Source: Pseudomonadota bacterium (GTDB lineage: Bacteria; Bdellovibrionota_C; UBA2361; OMIW01). From it: 13,336 bases of DNA. Position numbers and translations under genes: made by a program. Each line of letters starts with the position of its first letter. Positions within the stretch are counted from its first letter, which is position 1. The notes beneath the pieces were generated by a model. It was not told the DNA's origin, did no database searches, and saw nothing but the letters and a program-made list of their open reading frames with translations. The stretch is taken from contig OMIW01000117.1 in the NCBI GenBank assembly GCA_900299205.1, forward strand, positions 1 through 13,336, read 5' to 3'. Below, piece after piece: positions 1 through 8,257 of the stretch.

Positions 1-296
1 ATTCCTTAACTAGTGTTCCCTGAAGTCCTCGCTTTCTGAGGCTGAGAGCTCAGAAAGCGAGGATTTAATGAGCGCTCAGGAAAACATAACCAGATAGGAC
101 CACCCAAAAAAGAGCGACCGAAGAGAATCCCACCCTTCGAGACATGCTTATCTGTTGACTCTGTTGTGCCGATTTCCTCCGACTGGTTCACTTCGGAGTA
201 AGCGCTCGTAGTACAAGGGGGAGGAGGGACGGGGCATCACAGGCCTTCCTGGGGCCCACCCCTCCTAAAGGTTTAACCTGACGATGTTTATCCCTA
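1..296. other. Non-coding left edge with hairpins
   Basis: No open frame here looks like a real protein. The stretch holds a strong hairpin (23-66, listed separately), a 10-bp perfect palindrome TGAGCGCTCA (69-78), a 6-bp hairpin (177-182 with 193-198), a short palindrome AGGTTTAACCT (269-279) and a G-rich run near 218-236 faced by a C-rich run near 254-265. It follows the stop codon of the leftward gene ending at 297, so part of it is probably that gene's 3' untranslated region. A rightward gene may end just outside or at the very left edge, but too little is visible to say. Confidence 0.55.
23..66 (+). terminator. Strong hairpin, possible terminator at left edge
   Basis: Bases 23-40 pair with 49-66 to give an 18-bp stem around an 8-base loop. 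The only non-Watson-Crick pair is G25-T64. That pair is a G-U wobble in a rightward transcript but an A-C mismatch in a leftward one, which favours a + strand RNA. Only three T residues follow (ATTTAATG), so it is not a textbook Rho-independent terminator. It may close a rightward gene lying left of the window or serve as an mRNA end barrier. Confidence 0.5.
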
Positions 297-2231
297 CTAA
301 ATCCCTTCCTCCGTGAGGGGGGCTGTATCGGACAAACCGAGCTCAATCGGAGCAACTTCGTCCGATTGCGAATCATCCTCAACTTCTACATGAGATGTCA
401 TCGTAATGGCCCGCTTTACAAAGAGGGGAGAGCCCTCGAATGAATGCCCTTCGAGCGAGCCGAGGCTTTTGCCGGCCTCCTTTTCGTCGATATCGAGGAA
501 GCCAAAATGCTTCCGCATACTGACATGCAGAATTGCTTCCTGCGGAACCCCAGCGGAAGTGAGAATTGAGATGACCCCGTCTCGAGTCAGCCCTTCTCCT
601 TCGCCCTTACCCAAATAGAAACGAGTTGACCGTTGAGCTATCGTTCGGGGGCGAGGGGAATGCTGGTCATGCTGTTCGCCCCGCTCACGATTCTCCTGAC
701 GTTCACGACCTTCAGGTCGTTCCCGGTGTCCACCCCGCTCACGATGTTCCCCACGCTCTTTGGGGTTGGGCCGTTCACGTTTTTCTTGACGATGTTCCTG
801 TCTATCTCGAGGCTGAGCTTCACGTGGTTGTAGGTCCCGAGGCTGACCCGGTTGTCTATCTTCTCGATGATCCCGTCCACGCTGGCCCCTTCCATCGCGC
901 CCTCGACGGTCGTCTCCCTGACGGGGGAACCGATCGCGTCGATCTTGTTCCTCTCCCGCATCTGGCCCCTCTGCTCCTTCGGCTTGAGTGTTGAGTCCCT
1001 GAATGGCGAGTTGAATCGCTGCATTCAGGAGCTCCTCTTTCTGGGGATCTCCCTCGATAACGGCCCGTAATGCCCCGATTGAGCGGGAATCCGTTACCGG
1101 TATTGAGAGGAGTCGAGCTTTGAGGCCCGCAAACTTGGCCCGTTCAATCTCCTCCGCTGAGGGAAGGACGGCTTGTTCAAAGGATGCCTCCACAATCTTC
1201 CGAAGGTAGAAGAAGTTTGCCCGGTCTAGCGGGCCGACGATGTTAAGGACCTCACGAAGTTTACTCGCAGCCCGGGATGGTTCGGTTCGGTGGTAATAAA
1301 TCTCTGGGTCACTCGGGATGGAGTAATTAATGGCGAGCTTGAAGTCACCAACCTCTATTGACCGGGCGGTCCCATCGGTCACGACGAGTGCGGTAACTTC
1401 ACCAGAGGAGACCTGAGCAACGGACTGGGCAATCTTCTGCGGCGAAACGTGTCCGACGAGCTTCCGCGACGATATGGCGGCTTTCCGAAGGATTGTCTCT
1501 ACCAAATCTGCGTCAGAGGGCTGATTGCAGAAAACGACCGTGGGCGGAAGATTGAAACCCTGAATGAAATCGGTTAGGGCCTGTCCCTTCGCGAGCAGTT
1601 CTCCACCAACCTCATGAAAGAGGTGCTTTATCTGAACAGCTGAAGACTGAAAGTAGGGTTGCATCAGCTCTTCGAGAGCCGGGGATATTTCCGGTGCCAA
1701 TAGTACCAACTGCGGACGTTTACCCCGTTTGCACACTGTTGTCAGAATATCGCGCAGTGGTTGTACATCTTCGGCGGTCACTGGTTGGGAGACTACCAGG
1801 ATCACCCGAGCAATATCGGTAGCTCGCCCTCCGTCCCCTGCAAGGAACTCACAGACCTCGGAGCCAATACCAACAAGAAGGGCTGAATCTTCAATCGGTT
1901 CTGCGATTGCACCCCCCAAAATGCCGCGATTTTTAATTATTGTGGTGATAGCTGAAGCTGCGGAAGGAGTCTCAACAACTAATATTGAGGTCCCATTGCC
2001 GGGACGCACCGATTGCTCTACGAAGATCGCATCAACGATGCTTTCGGCCCCTGATACGCTGGGGAGGAATGCATCTTTGCCGGAGCGAAAGAGAGGAATG
2101 AGCTGAGAGGTTTGGGGGTTGGCTGCATCGGGGCCCAATCCATCGAGCACTGCTGATTCACGTTCTTGGAGTTCGGGACTGCCCAGATCGTTCTCGGAAA
2201 GATTACTTCGAGTTTGTTGGTTCATACTCAT
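297..2231 (-). CDS. DEAD-box-like RNA-binding protein lacking ATPase motifs
   Basis: 644 residues. The order of parts follows a DEAD-box RNA helicase with a DbpA-type tail. Residues 37-66 align with the Q-motif/motif I region (IPLFRSGKD present), 143-185 with motifs II-III, 228-322 with the second RecA domain (VVFCN 232-236, VVTDGTAR 283-290, INYSIP 301-306), 417-532 is an Arg/Glu/Asp/Gln-rich disordered linker, and 534-608 resembles the DbpA RNA-binding domain. The catalytic residues are missing: the GSGKT position reads GAESI (61-65), DEAD reads about SQPV (148-151), SAT reads about APE (179-181), and HRIGRTGR reads HRTEPSRA (314-321), losing the arginine fingers. From this I infer an RNA-binding protein without ATP-driven unwinding. 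There are no internal stops, so it is not a decayed gene. ATG codons at 2231 and 2225 are both possible starts, and the ribosome site is weak. It is transcribed away from its divergent neighbour. Confidence 0.8.
   Translation of the reverse strand: MSMNQQTRSNLSENDLGSPELQERESAVLDGLGPDAANPQTSQLIPLFRSGKDAFLPSVSGAESIVDAIFVEQSVRPGNGTSILVVETPSAASAITTIIKNRGILGGAIAEPIEDSALLVGIGSEVCEFLAGDGGRATDIARVILVVSQPVTAEDVQPLRDILTTVCKRGKRPQLVLLAPEISPALEELMQPYFQSSAVQIKHLFHEVGGELLAKGQALTDFIQGFNLPPTVVFCNQPSDADLVETILRKAAISSRKLVGHVSPQKIAQSVAQVSSGEVTALVVTDGTARSIEVGDFKLAINYSIPSDPEIYYHRTEPSRAASKLREVLNIVGPLDRANFFYLRKIVEASFEQAVLPSAEEIERAKFAGLKARLLSIPVTDSRSIGALRAVIEGDPQKEELLNAAIQLAIQGLNTQAEGAEGPDAGEEQDRRDRFPRQGDDRRGRDGRGQRGRDHREDRQPGQPRDLQPREAQPRDRQEHRQEKRERPNPKERGEHRERGGHRERPEGRERQENRERGEQHDQHSPRPRTIAQRSTRFYLGKGEGEGLTRDGVISILTSAGVPQEAILHVSMRKHFGFLDIDEKEAGKSLGSLEGHSFEGSPLFVKRAITMTSHVEVEDDSQSDEVAPIELGLSDTAPLTEEGI
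636..983 (-). repeat. Low-complexity region encoding the charged linker
   Basis: This part of the DEAD-box-like gene encodes residues 417-532, an Arg/Glu/Asp/Gln/His/Gly/Pro-rich linker with recurring RERG, HRER and RDR-like units. The DNA is correspondingly repetitive; for example CCCGCTCACGAT occurs at 680-691 and again at 734-745. Such tracts are common in RNA helicase tails, where they bind RNA non-specifically and can drive condensation. They often vary in length between strains through slippage. Confidence 0.65.
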
Positions 2232-2791: not shown

Positions 2792-3937
2792 ATGAAGATG
2801 GTTTCGCTGTTACCGGGGAAGGTGGGGAGGCTGAGAATAGCCTCTTTGGGTATCTGCTCTGTGCTTCTCGGCGGATGTGTTGTTTTCGGGGGGGCGAATC
2901 CGAACGTTGTTGGTGCTTCTGAGGATCGAATTTCGCAAAAAGGTCCGTCAAATCTTGTGATCGGAGCTCGCGTAGACAATGGCCGGGTGACCGTCGTGCG
3001 GGCAGATGGGCGGGTTTATTCGGCGGTTCCGAGCTCAGATGGAAATTACTCCGTGACGCCCCGTTGCGCCCATCGCGGTGTCGGGGGACCCTTCTTTGCT
3101 TCAGCCCTATCCGAAGATGGGCGAACGGTTGCGCTGAGTGGGCGAGGCGTGGTCCGGGTGACGTCTCTCTTCGATTGTCGAGTGATTGCTGAAACCCGTT
3201 CGGTGCTGAGTCGGGTCGGGTCTCTTTCATTCTCACCCGACGGACAATCCTTGCTGTTGGGGGCATTCGATGGAAAGGTCTATCGGTGGCGTTTTTCGGA
3301 GCAGGTTCAATTCCATCGGAATCCGGTGCTTTTGTTTGAGCGATATGTCGGTCACGGTGGGGTGGTAAGCTCGGTTGTTTTTCATCCGGCGGGTCGAGTG
3401 TTTTTCTCTGGAGATTGGACTGGTTCCCTCCGGGCGTGGTTGCGGTATGACGAGGATGATTACAGGGGTAGGTGGGATGTCGTCTCCGTACCCGGTCGCT
3501 TTTACACCGAAATCGCGGTGTCAGCTTCTGCCGCGCGATTGCCAGAGGCAATAGAGGCGGTGGCCGTCTCAAAAGATGCCGAGAGCCTTCTATCCGCGAC
3601 GCGCGATGGCAATCTCCAGCTATGGTCCATCCGAGGATTCGCGAATCGGGGCGAGGTGAAGGCCCACGAGGGTGAGGTTCGGAGTATCGCGTTAGACCGT
3701 TCAGGAACATTGGCAGCTTCCGGCGGAAGAGATGGGTTTATTCGGTTGTGGCGAATATCCTCGCCGAACGAGGGAGAGGAAAAGAGAGAGGTAACTTTCC
3801 TTAAAGTTGGTGAGTGGTATCTCCCTAACACGCGAGCTGTCTCGTTGGCGCAGGATGGTTCGGTGATTGCCGTGTCGGATGATTCGATTCGCAGGTTCGG
3901 TGAGGAGGGCCCGAGAGCATCGGGTGAGCGACGTTAA
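2792..3937 (+). CDS. WD40-repeat beta-propeller lipoprotein
   Basis: 381 residues. The N-terminus is a lipoprotein signal peptide: basic residues to 14, a hydrophobic core, then lipobox LGGC with the modified cysteine at 29. A chain of WD40-like units follows, at about 58-80, 98-135, 139-170, 187-219, 254-281, 291-322 and 347-370. Several carry the typical 'SPDG...DG.V..W' pattern (148-166, 260-278, 302-320). Seven units fit a single complete seven-bladed propeller. The mature protein would be membrane-anchored and face the periplasm or outer-membrane interior, probably as a protein-binding scaffold; the partner is unknown. No enzymatic motif is seen. The ribosome site before the ATG at 2792 is weak, and an ATG two codons later is an alternative. 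lspA, the peptidase that would process it, starts 37 bp downstream, so the two are probably co-transcribed. Bacterial WD40 lipoproteins exist, but I do not recognise a named homologue. Confidence 0.8.
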   Translation: MKMVSLLPGKVGRLRIASLGICSVLLGGCVVFGGANPNVVGASEDRISQKGPSNLVIGARVDNGRVTVVRADGRVYSAVPSSDGNYSVTPRCAHRGVGGPFFASALSEDGRTVALSGRGVVRVTSLFDCRVIAETRSVLSRVGSLSFSPDGQSLLLGAFDGKVYRWRFSEQVQFHRNPVLLFERYVGHGGVVSSVVFHPAGRVFFSGDWTGSLRAWLRYDEDDYRGRWDVVSVPGRFYTEIAVSASAARLPEAIEAVAVSKDAESLLSATRDGNLQLWSIRGFANRGEVKAHEGEVRSIALDRSGTLAASGGRDGFIRLWRISSPNEGEEKREVTFLKVGEWYLPNTRAVSLAQDGSVIAVSDDSIRRFGEEGPRASGERR

Positions 3938-3974
3938 TATATCGGCCCGGGCCGTTTGTAGGAAAAAAGGGGGG

Positions 3975-4511
3975 ATGGTGACTCAGCAGTTTAAGATTCA
4001 AACGCTCGTGGGCCTCGTGGTGCTTGTGGCCTCCTTTACCACCCTCATCGATCAGGCGACGAAATGGGCTATTGTGCAGCTGCTGAGTACGGGCGAACAG
4101 GTCGAAGTAATTCCGGGTTTTTTCTCTCTGACTCTTCTTTTTAACAAGGGGGCGGCATTCGGTCTTTTTGCCGGGATAGAATCGGATGCCCTGCGCTACA
4201 CTCTTCTTGGACTATCGACGCTTGTTGCCCTGTCGATCCTCGGATATGTCCTTTTAAAGGACTTTTGTGATGATGTGCCAGGGCAGTGTGTGGTGGGAGC
4301 CGTTTTGGGGGGAGCCGTAGGAAATATTATTGATCGGGTGCGACTCGGAGAAGTGATTGATTTTCTCGATTTTTACGTAGGATCTCGCCACTGGCCGGCC
4401 TTCAACGTAGCCGATTCAGCAATATGCGTAGGGGTCATTCTGCTTCTTTTAAGAAAACCTCGACGTGCCCCTGATTGTCTTGTTCCCCCTTCCGAGAAAA
4501 GCATGTCTTGA
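3975..4511 (+). CDS. lspA: Lipoprotein signal peptidase (signal peptidase II)
   Basis: 178 residues, close to the family norm of about 160-180. LspA is an inner-membrane aspartic peptidase that removes the signal peptide from diacylglyceryl-modified prolipoproteins. The family motifs are intact: NKGAAFGLF (57-65), GNIIDR with catalytic Asp120, and FNVADSAI with catalytic Asp147. Four hydrophobic segments are visible, at about 10-25, 60-68/73-94, 105-118 and 148-159. I chose the ATG at 3975 because a purine-rich AGG/AAGGGGGG run precedes it directly and the family N-terminus fits. A longer in-frame reading back to 3867 would overlap the end of the WD40 gene and add a charged, non-membrane extension. 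It sits among lipoprotein genes, its own substrates. The C-terminal tail after 160 is polar and unremarkable. Confidence 0.95.
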   Translation: MVTQQFKIQTLVGLVVLVASFTTLIDQATKWAIVQLLSTGEQVEVIPGFFSLTLLFNKGAAFGLFAGIESDALRYTLLGLSTLVALSILGYVLLKDFCDDVPGQCVVGAVLGGAVGNIIDRVRLGEVIDFLDFYVGSRHWPAFNVADSAICVGVILLLLRKPRRAPDCLVPPSEKSMS

Positions 4512-5896: not shown

Positions 5897-5928
5897 GGAG
5901 AAGGATTAACTTGCGGAGGCGGGCGACT

Positions 5929-7485
5929 ATGGCGCGGCGTGCGGGGGTGTTAAGGAATAAAGGGTTACGGAGGATAATGCTCAGAACTCCTTTGAATCCG
6001 GGGGTAGCAGGCCGGGTCGCTACCCTCGGTATTATTGTCGTGATGTCGGCCTCGTGTGCTACCGATCCGGGCCGGATGACGGGAATCGGAGCGGCAACTG
6101 GTGGCGCGATTGGCGCTGGCTTGGGAGCGTTGGTCGGGGCCCAAGCGGGAGATCCGACAACTGGTCTTCTTCTTGGGGGAGCGGCGGGCTCAGTAGCGGG
6201 TGGGGTAGTTGCGAATCAATTTGAGGCTGAGGATCGGTATCAGGATGAGGCTCAGGCCCTTGCGCGACAACAAGGACTCCAGATATCGCGGCAGAGGCGG
6301 GAGATTGCGACCTTGAGGAGTCAAGGGCTGCTTGATGATTCTCCGGCGGCAACAGATATCTATCCGACCTCTCGGGTGACACAAAGGGACTATCGGATTT
6401 CAGCCTCTTCACAGCGGGGACTCAAGCCGATGGATCAGGAGGATCTTCGGGCGATTTACGTTGAAAGGAGGAACGGTCTTGCAGCGCGTTCCGATGAAAC
6501 GGGCTTCGAGGGAAGGACGGAAAGATTTGAGAACAAAAACGTCCCGACCTCCGAGTTAGGTAGTATCTCTCAGGGAGAGCCTTCATCCCGCAGCCCATCG
6601 GCTCAGGTTCCCGCGGTGGCAGTGGCGCCGGCGCAGCGTCGTCCATCTCAAGTCGTCGCAGATAATAGTTTGCACAAAGGTAAGGCGGTCGACCCTGAAG
6701 CTCGTACCTCGCCAACAGAGAGTAGTCAGCGTTCAGACCGAGGAGGCCCTCTTCCCAGTCCATTAGTCGAGAAAAAGGTTCTCCAACAAAGCGCGACTCA
6801 GGAGAAGCTTGAAAAGACTCGAGTTCTCGCCAGTGCACCAAAGGCTCGGCAAGAGAGTACAGGGATATCGGAGGTAAAGACAGTCGGCGGCCCGAAGGGT
6901 GACTCTCGGTTACCAGAATCTAAGGTCGTTAAGAAAACAGAACTTGCTCAAAGTGAGATAAAGCCCTGGGATAGTCGTATTCGTGAATCATCGAGGGGTG
7001 ATAGCTCCAAGGTTTCTGTGCCCGTGCGGAAGGCTCCGGGTCTTGAATCTTCCCGAGAGATGAATAAGGTGGCAGCTCGAGAGGAGGTGATACCGGCCTC
7101 TGCGAGGGTCGTACCGGTAGCACGACCGAAGGAGTTGCAATCGACGGATACCTCGAAGCCACTGGTTGAGGATAACGCTGCATTACTGGAGAAGCCGAGT
7201 GGCGTGCAACAGGTGGGCGGAAAGGCATCGCCGGGTGAATGTGCGCAGGCTGCACAGGAAATAGAAAAGTCAAATCAGTCATCTGAATCTTCTGAGAAGC
7301 TATTTCACTATCGCAGGGCGTTGCGCCTGTGTCCCTCTGATGCGCGATATCACATCAAGCTTGGAGACCACTACCGATCCCTGAAGCGATTGGCTGATGC
7401 AAATTTTGAATACAAGGAGGCGCTTGCTCTTGATCCTGCAAACGGAGAGGCCAAGCAACGGATGGAAGACTTAAAAAACGGATAA
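5929..7485 (+). CDS. Glycine-zipper exported protein with C-terminal TPR
   Basis: 518 residues. A signal peptide ends at SASC-A (Cys43). The lipobox is imperfect, with Ser rather than Leu/Val at -3, so either lipidation or ordinary signal peptidase cleavage is possible. Residues 52-94 form a glycine zipper (GGAIGAGLGALVGAQAG and GGAAGSVAGG), which in related families inserts in or lines a membrane. A charged helix follows (about 98-133). Residues 135-430 are polar, Ser/Lys/Arg/Glu-rich and probably disordered. The last 80 or so residues form TPR-like helices ('YRRALRLCPSDARYHIKLGDHYR', written here without its end, then 'EYKEALALDPANGEAKQRM'). I chose the ATG at 5929 for GGAGG nine bases upstream; a TTG at 5911 and an ATG at 5977 (shorter signal peptide, GGAGG only three bases away) are alternatives. 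It is followed after 16 bp by a second gene with the same N-terminal module. Probably an envelope scaffold; function unknown. Confidence 0.75.
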   Translation: MARRAGVLRNKGLRRIMLRTPLNPGVAGRVATLGIIVVMSASCATDPGRMTGIGAATGGAIGAGLGALVGAQAGDPTTGLLLGGAAGSVAGGVVANQFEAEDRYQDEAQALARQQGLQISRQRREIATLRSQGLLDDSPAATDIYPTSRVTQRDYRISASSQRGLKPMDQEDLRAIYVERRNGLAARSDETGFEGRTERFENKNVPTSELGSISQGEPSSRSPSAQVPAVAVAPAQRRPSQVVADNSLHKGKAVDPEARTSPTESSQRSDRGGPLPSPLVEKKVLQQSATQEKLEKTRVLASAPKARQESTGISEVKTVGGPKGDSRLPESKVVKKTELAQSEIKPWDSRIRESSRGDSSKVSVPVRKAPGLESSREMNKVAAREEVIPASARVVPVARPKELQSTDTSKPLVEDNAALLEKPSGVQQVGGKASPGECAQAAQEIEKSNQSSESSEKLFHYRRALRLCPSDARYHIKLGDHYRSLKRLADANFEYKEALALDPANGEAKQRMEDLKNG

Positions 7486-7501
7486 GTGAGGAAAAAGTTT
7501 T

Positions 7502-8257
7502 ATGGCGTTAGTTGTAACTAAAAAAGGCAGAGATTCCCAAAACGGTTGGAGGGGCTTTTTAAATCCATTTGCTGCGGTGGTATTGCTGTCGCTGTGTGTC
7601 ATGTCGGGGTGTGCTGGAGGATTACGAGCGCCGAATGCTCGCGAAAAAGGCGCTCTCGCGGGAGGAGCACTTGGAGCGGGTCTTGGAGCAATTGTCGGGA
7701 ATCAGGTCGGTAATCCTGGAGCTGGTGTTGCAATCGGTACGGCCTTCGGAGCGCTCTCAGGAGGGGTCATCGGTCATGAGATACAACGTGGCAACGAGGA
7801 GATGGCCGAGCGGGACGATCGGATCTCCCGCAATGAAGAGATGTTGGCGGAGAATCGGCGACTTCTCGAGGGACTTCGAGCAGGTGGCCTCGATGTCCGG
7901 GAGACTGAGAGGGGTATTGTTGCGAACCTTCCTGATGTCCTCTTCCAGTTTGGGAGGTCGGATCTGACTATCGGCGCTCGAGATGCCGTAGCGCAGATAG
8001 CTCGCGTCGCTGACCGGGCTCCCGGGCGGCGAATCTCGATAGAAGGGCATACCGATTCAGTAGGCTCTCCTGATTTTAACTATAGGCTGTCTCAGCAGCG
8101 GGCACGTTCCGTGGCGGATGAGCTTGTCGCCTCAGGTATCGCGGGATCTCGGGTTCGGACTCGAGGTTTTGGGGAGGACCGTCCAATTTCCTCAAACGAC
8201 TCGGATGATGGTCGTCGGCGGAATCGACGGGTCGAGGTAATTATCGAAAACCGTTAG
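7502..8257 (+). CDS. OmpA-family peptidoglycan-binding lipoprotein, glycine-zipper type
   Basis: 251 residues. The signal peptide ends in MSGC with Cys37 as the lipidation site. A glycine zipper follows (about 50-90, GGALGAGLGAIVGNQVG then GTAFGALSGGVIG), then a charged helix (92-127) and an OmpA C-terminal domain (about 140-250). The OmpA core is complete: VLFQFG, IEGHTDSVGS (180-189), Asp191 and Arg200 at the positions that hold meso-diaminopimelate in OmpA/Pal, and the final NRRVEVII (241-248). The layout resembles YiaD/YfiB-type lipoproteins that tie the outer membrane to the cell wall. The ATG at 7502 has AGGA about nine bases upstream and lies 16 bp after the previous stop, so both genes share a transcript. 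Its first 130 residues match those of the upstream gene in order and spacing, which suggests tandem duplication. Confidence 0.92.
   Translation: MALVVTKKGRDSQNGWRGFLNPFAAVVLLSLCVMSGCAGGLRAPNAREKGALAGGALGAGLGAIVGNQVGNPGAGVAIGTAFGALSGGVIGHEIQRGNEEMAERDDRISRNEEMLAENRRLLEGLRAGGLDVRETERGIVANLPDVLFQFGRSDLTIGARDAVAQIARVADRAPGRRISIEGHTDSVGSPDFNYRLSQQRARSVADELVASGIAGSRVRTRGFGEDRPISSNDSDDGRRRNRRVEVIIENR

Follow-up and report, generated by a model that had tools for sequence, protein, structure and literature searches.

A DEAD-box pseudohelicase clade with a conserved DbpA-type domain, probably derived from a split bacterial RNA helicase

The gene described here encodes a protein of DEAD-box descent that has lost its catalytic residues and has kept a DbpA-type domain, a predicted RNA binder. 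It lies in a stretch of 13,336 nucleotides, which was analysed as a whole and is called the window in the following. A search of related genomes found relatives of the protein in 48 of 57; the class, and with it the phylum, was sampled with 45 genomes and the order of uncultured bacteria to which the window belongs with 28. We distinguish the pseudohelicase (P), the full-length intact orthologue of sister orders (F) and a relocated short paralogue (S). It is probable, in our judgement, that an ancestral helicase was split into the catalytic copy S and the non-catalytic RNA-binding copy P, and that P now serves as an ATP-independent RNA-binding protein that offers its RecA2 domain for docking.

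The P gene of the window is a single continuous frame of 644 codons (Table 1), as an earlier reading of the sequence alone (the sequence-only reading) had stated, and the motif readings and positions given there were right. A DEAD-box enzyme is expected to carry motifs I and II, the SAT of motif III and the HRxGRxGR of motif VI; in their places the window protein reads GAESI, SQPV, LAPE and HRTEPSRA. The model places the GAESI site between a strand (residues 54-57) and a helix (62-75). The earlier statement that every catalytic motif is lost is right for motifs I, II, III and VI in that all their catalytic residues are absent, and fails for motif IV (VVFCN, residues 232-236), for T285 and D286 of motif V and for R315, the first arginine of motif VI, which are retained. 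Pseudohelicases have been judged by sequence, structure and function (PMC9539457); of these traits the protein shows inactivating motif changes within a predicted helicase fold, and in the matter of function it shows purifying selection. An Rfam scan of the window gave no matches. About 230 bases beyond the end of the pseudohelicase gene, at window positions 26-63, there is a perfect, terminator-like inverted repeat of 15 bases (TCCTCGCTTTCTGAG / CTCAGAAAGCGAGGA); elsewhere (window 5911-8257) two neighbouring genes have a glycine-zipper segment in common, one ending in TPR repeats and the other in an OmpA domain (Pfam).

Table 1 Features of the P locus (positions in the window; residues of the P protein in brackets)
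Feature	Positions	Strand	Evidence
Pseudohelicase gene (P), 644 aa	297..2231	-	Single open frame; family present in 25/28 genomes of the order
Degenerate RecA1 domain (15-200)	1632..2189	-	No Pfam DEAD match; Z 17 of the fold model against RecA1 structures of DEAD-box proteins
Walker A position, reads GAESI (61-65)	2037..2051	-	
DEAD-box position, reads SQPV (148-151)	1779..1790	-	
SAT position, reads LAPE (178-181)	1689..1700	-	
RecA2 domain (201-358), best-conserved part	1158..1631	-	Pfam Helicase_C; structural match; dN/dS
Motif V, VVTDGTAR (283-290)	1362..1385	-	TD kept family-wide: T 24/25, D 25/25
Motif VI position, HRTEPSRA (314-321)	1269..1292	-	First Arg kept, other two lost
Helical extension (359-415), aligned with Hera dimerization region	987..1157	-	VIA-align
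Arg/Glu-rich linker (420-533)	633..974	-	30 Arg + 17 Glu among 114 aa
DbpA-type domain, putatively RNA-binding (534-612)	396..632	-	Pfam DbpA 537-606; invariant residues
Divergent WD40 gene, conserved neighbour of P and intact orthologues	2792..3937	+	Synteny; Pfam WD40
lspA (signal peptidase II), second conserved neighbour	3867..4511	+	Synteny; Pfam Peptidase_A8 1.1e-39

In the profile search that had been proposed for the window protein, Helicase_C matched residues 219-315 (1.2e-8) and DbpA (PF03880) matched residues 537-606 (2.3e-4, at 21.6 bits below the curated cut-off of 25.6); no DEAD domain was matched, so that RecA1 is not recognisable by sequence, and it is the fold by which it can be recognised. 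Sequence matches in the PDB fell nearly all on RecA2, those to Hera and DeaD being the best. An AlphaFold2 model of residues 1-415, built on 18 related sequences, has a mean pLDDT of 86, contains both RecA domains and matches the two-domain DEAD-box proteins CshA, Hera, DbpA and eIF4A; its large whole-length rmsd presumably means that the two domains are oriented differently (pTM 0.58). The modelled RecA2 alone superposes on DEAD-box RecA2 structures at 2-2.6 Å. When residues 1-200 were modelled alone (pLDDT 75), DEAD-type RecA1 domains headed the list of structure matches, with a Z of 17.2 and an rmsd of 2.9-3.3 Å over 173-175 residues. A RecA1 domain with nearly no sequence signal left is thus still predicted to fold as RecA1. 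The sequence-only reading had let the helicase framework align from end to end; this stands for RecA2 by its Pfam match and for RecA1 by fold, not by sequence, and the structure prediction that it called for returned both DEAD-type RecA folds. Further downstream, residues 199-411 of the model align with the RecA2-dimerization unit of Hera (3i32/3ear; Z 21.6, rmsd 4.2-4.8); the Pfam family DeaD_dimer had no match in the window protein. The Arg/Glu-rich linker and the DbpA-like domain noted earlier were both recovered, the former with 114 residues and the latter through its sub-cut-off match. In an alignment of P with the full-length orthologues this domain shows the invariant residues R, Y, G, G, R, F, D and A, and in one relative (L019) PF03880 is matched above the cut-off (6.6e-12); the PDB profile match to the domain of YxiN, whose subfamily (DbpA/YxiN) is marked by specific binding to hairpin 92 of 23S rRNA, has an E of only 0.029. 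Profile match and conserved residues together place it among the DbpA-type domains. Two RecA-like domains of DEAD-box descent are indicated by the model for both domains, by the position of RecA2 in a tree with intact helicases and by synteny. As an enzyme, judged by four motifs, P stands outside the DEAD-box proteins, and by descent and predicted fold it stands inside.

P is carried by 25 of the 28 genomes of the order and was not found in the remaining three (G011, G022 and G025, 84-88% complete). Motifs I, II and III are each disrupted or missing in all 25 proteins; the alignment shows a Walker A lysine in a single protein and a DEAD glutamate in none, and the first, second and third arginine of motif VI are present in 25, 2 and 0 proteins, respectively. 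The DbpA-type domain is retained in every member. The 11 F sequences of the sister orders, by contrast, have all motifs intact together with a linker of like type and a DbpA-type domain, and the 14 S likewise have intact catalytic residues (one DEAD box of S reads DEVD). This contrast indicates that the loss of the catalytic motifs in P is more than chance. A tree of the RecA2 domain unites 24 P in one clade (100/100), which lies with F and S and apart from DeaD and RhlE; its stem is long, at about one change per column. The P of G008 (L179; L068 2687-4669) has motifs IV and V decayed too (LVVTNT, TNDASIQ), with the RNA-binding domain intact and the WD40-lspA locus present, and that of G015 (L002 1315-2904), which has no RecA1, still reads HRMGRTGNAG at motif VI, the least decayed form of this motif in the clade. 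Proteins consisting of RecA2 and a DbpA-type domain also occur in other families of the class (L047 1726-3102 in G037, L048 1359-2846 in G035, L036 1243-2358 in G028); their RecA2 motifs are degraded as well, the genes of G037 and G035 adjoin WD40, and those of G035 and G028 are near lspA. They are perhaps further, independent pseudohelicases; their grouping with P has a support of just 75/61. Matches of a pattern scan in Spirochaetes and Bacteroidia were discarded as further candidates, the motifs being intact in all.

Most pairwise dS values were saturated, and dN/dS was thus taken from close pairs only. For these P pairs it amounts to 0.01-0.06 in RecA2 and to 0.03-0.18 in the RNA-binding domain, and in the one usable pair with a residual RecA1 to 0.15 in RecA1 versus 0.05 in RecA2. 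P is therefore maintained by purifying selection, most strictly in RecA2, and RecA1 is the relaxed part. RecA1 is wholly gone in 14 of the 25 P, in which the frame starts at RecA2 and is often preceded by a purine-rich stretch resembling a ribosome-binding site. The change between a degenerate and an absent RecA1 requires at least five changes of state on the tree. A separate upstream gene for RecA1 in these species was considered and rejected: tblastn with eight RecA1 queries detected no RecA1 remnant beside the RecA1-less genes, and there is no room for one, since only 17-463 bp separate the frame from the divergent WD40 gene at these 14 loci and RecA1 takes about 560 bases.

That the genomes are MAG-type assemblies of many contigs might suggest a decaying pseudogene or an assembly artefact. 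Against this stand open frames with the identical loss across many families (25 species), a dN/dS far below 1 and conserved synteny, and we regard this explanation as hardly credible; a pseudogene or a frameshift is ruled out by the open frame and dN/dS. P is neither an isolated oddity nor a decaying gene. The proposal of a pseudohelicase under selection is accordingly borne out by a motif-less clade of 24 proteins, dN/dS well below 1 and confidently predicted RecA folds; homologues with intact motifs, named at the outset as evidence to the contrary, were found only as F of the sister orders and as the separate S, which represent the ancestral state, and in no member of the P clade. One could also imagine that P still binds or hydrolyses ATP through non-canonical residues, since the RecA folds are kept in the models and the TD of motif V and the first arginine of motif VI in the proteins. 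However, 14 P lack RecA1 altogether, and the near-complete absence of the Walker A lysine and the complete absence of the DEAD glutamate add to this, so that residual use of ATP seems very improbable.

The origin of P is indicated by its locus. Throughout the order P is divergent from the WD40 gene, which is followed by lspA; of the 11 loci read in sister orders, 8 have F beside this WD40 gene, lspA lies within reach in several, and both neighbours are absent at all six S loci examined. Because P and F have the WD40/lspA locus and S is without it, P is to be regarded as the orthologue of F by position, which has decayed at the original site, and S as the copy that moved; this direction, with P staying and S relocating, is the one suggested by synteny. 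S was found in 14 of the 28 genomes of the order as a protein of 370-526 aa with intact motifs. Three S proteins scanned with Pfam have DEAD and Helicase_C and no DbpA domain. P and S are thus complementary, P keeping the RNA-binding domain and S the motor. In the RecA2 tree S is not one clade, and the tree therefore gives no exact node for the duplication. Among the 16 genomes of the order that carry P and are at least 90% complete, S is present in 12 (in G013 incomplete, at the edge of a contig) and was not found in four (G002, G003, G014 and G017). Nor was it found in family f4 or in the genome of the window (G000, 89.75% complete), where the search gave canonical DeaD (C79) and otherwise only weaker matches to helicases. 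In the longer S proteins a helical region homologous to that of P is present, and the S of G004, G009 and family f11, of about 400 aa, are without it. In family f11 (L031, L032, L033, L043 and L044) the S gene is followed by a gene for a RhlE-like helicase with intact motifs.

These data bear on the idea that P is the subunit of a heterodimer, in which its Hera-like helical region pairs with the active S, delivers it to RNA and so rebuilds the ancestral enzyme in trans. The complementary domain losses, the modelled match of residues 199-411 to the dimerization unit of Hera and the homologous helical region of the longer S would fit such an arrangement, but the short S proteins have no such region and P stays in f4, G002 and G000, where S was not found; we consider a heterodimer of this kind unlikely. 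As P persists where S was not found, S is not its only partner, unless the assemblies miss S, and the candidate role of S as sole partner is weakened accordingly. The RecA2 domain of P has changed in a specific manner: FCN-x-K has become FCN-x-P, R has become K at 250 and S has become G at 260, all three nearly invariant in P, and the arginine of QxxR, which in known DEAD-box proteins contacts RNA, is lost in all P, with C235, N236, T285, D286, Y312, R315 and F340 retained. These changes would be in keeping with a domain that has given up closure on ATP and has acquired a new conserved surface, possibly one for the docking of a protein. They can also be read in favour of P as mainly a protein scaffold or regulator acting through RecA2, for example a platform of a degradosome-like assembly or of ribosome factors, with RNA binding being secondary, as RecA2 is the slowest-evolving part despite having no catalysis left and carries clade-specific near-invariant residues. 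Every P, however, has the RNA-binding domain, with invariant residues common to the active orthologues, and it is rather doubtful that the scaffold function prevails.

For the split that we favour the following course is probable. The ancestor would have been a full-length DEAD-box helicase, consisting of the core, an Arg-rich linker and a DbpA-type domain, of the kind that is encoded beside WD40 and lspA in much of the class. Sequence, synteny and tree suggest that it was duplicated, presumably in the ancestor of the order. The copy that stayed in place would have lost the residues for binding and hydrolysis of ATP and the arginines of motif VI, becoming the pseudohelicase, and the relocated S would have retained its catalytic core without the RNA-binding domain. 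In P the DbpA-type domain and the basic linker may bind a structured RNA, for which rRNA or an intermediate of ribosome assembly is the likeliest candidate, and RecA2 may be the surface on which a partner docks; this partner is plausibly an active helicase, namely S where it is present, or DeaD. RecA1, deleted several times, would be dispensable to this role, and most likely P works as an ATP-independent RNA tether or assembly cofactor. A function in ribosome assembly or beside an active helicase had already been suggested from the sequence; both remain conjectural here, and the idea of a partner gains from the S copy.

P probably works most like Utp25/Def, a pseudohelicase of the eukaryotic SSU processome for which binding of pre-rRNA and a role as cofactor of a helicase have been proposed (PMC9539457). 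Both have a DEAD-box-like fold of two RecA domains (predicted in the case of P) with vestigial motifs, Utp25 being inactive and P predicted to be so; eIF4A is among the best structural matches of both, and both would have originated by duplication and divergence. Utp25, in contrast, is eukaryotic, keeps both RecA domains and has a disordered N-terminal extension, whereas P is bacterial, has RecA1 deleted in many species and carries a DbpA-type domain instead; the essentiality of Utp25 has been tested, and for P an active sister copy has been identified. The more specific picture of P as a motor-less RNA-binding "handle" with a repeatedly deleted RecA1, which as a stand-alone, ATP-independent factor of ribosome or RNP assembly would be the bacterial counterpart of Utp25 with its motor residing in S, is put forward tentatively, at somewhat less than an even chance. 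Utp25 was counted in 2022 as only the second proposed pseudohelicase, the only other one named being PriA of Deinococcus radiodurans (PMC9539457). The latter is likewise a bacterial helicase-family protein that has lost helicase function, but it is a biochemically characterised helicase of DNA-replication restart and no DEAD-box RNA helicase (PMC4504706). DbpA/YxiN, Hera and DeaD/CsdA have the same order of core, helical extension and RNA-binding domain as P, and the structures of Hera and DeaD match its modelled RecA2 and extension; they are, however, active ATPases with intact motifs, and P has none intact of I, II and III. The full-length orthologues of the sister orders (L018, L066, L046 and others) have the locus, the linker type and the RNA-binding domain of P and differ from it by intact motifs I to VI. 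Domains of the DbpA type differ in the RNA that they bind: those of Hera and YxiN recognise distinct parts of one rRNA fragment (PMC3695512).

In the literature searched, mostly outside subscription journals, we found no bacterial DEAD-box pseudohelicase, and priority is not established by this. Pseudohelicases have rarely been documented, and a dead enzyme that is kept for its grip is rare in bacteria. In the 45 sampled species the ancestral enzyme, an active copy and a graded decay from a degenerate to a deleted RecA1 coexist, and with these stages side by side it becomes directly testable what role is left to a helicase that does not use ATP.
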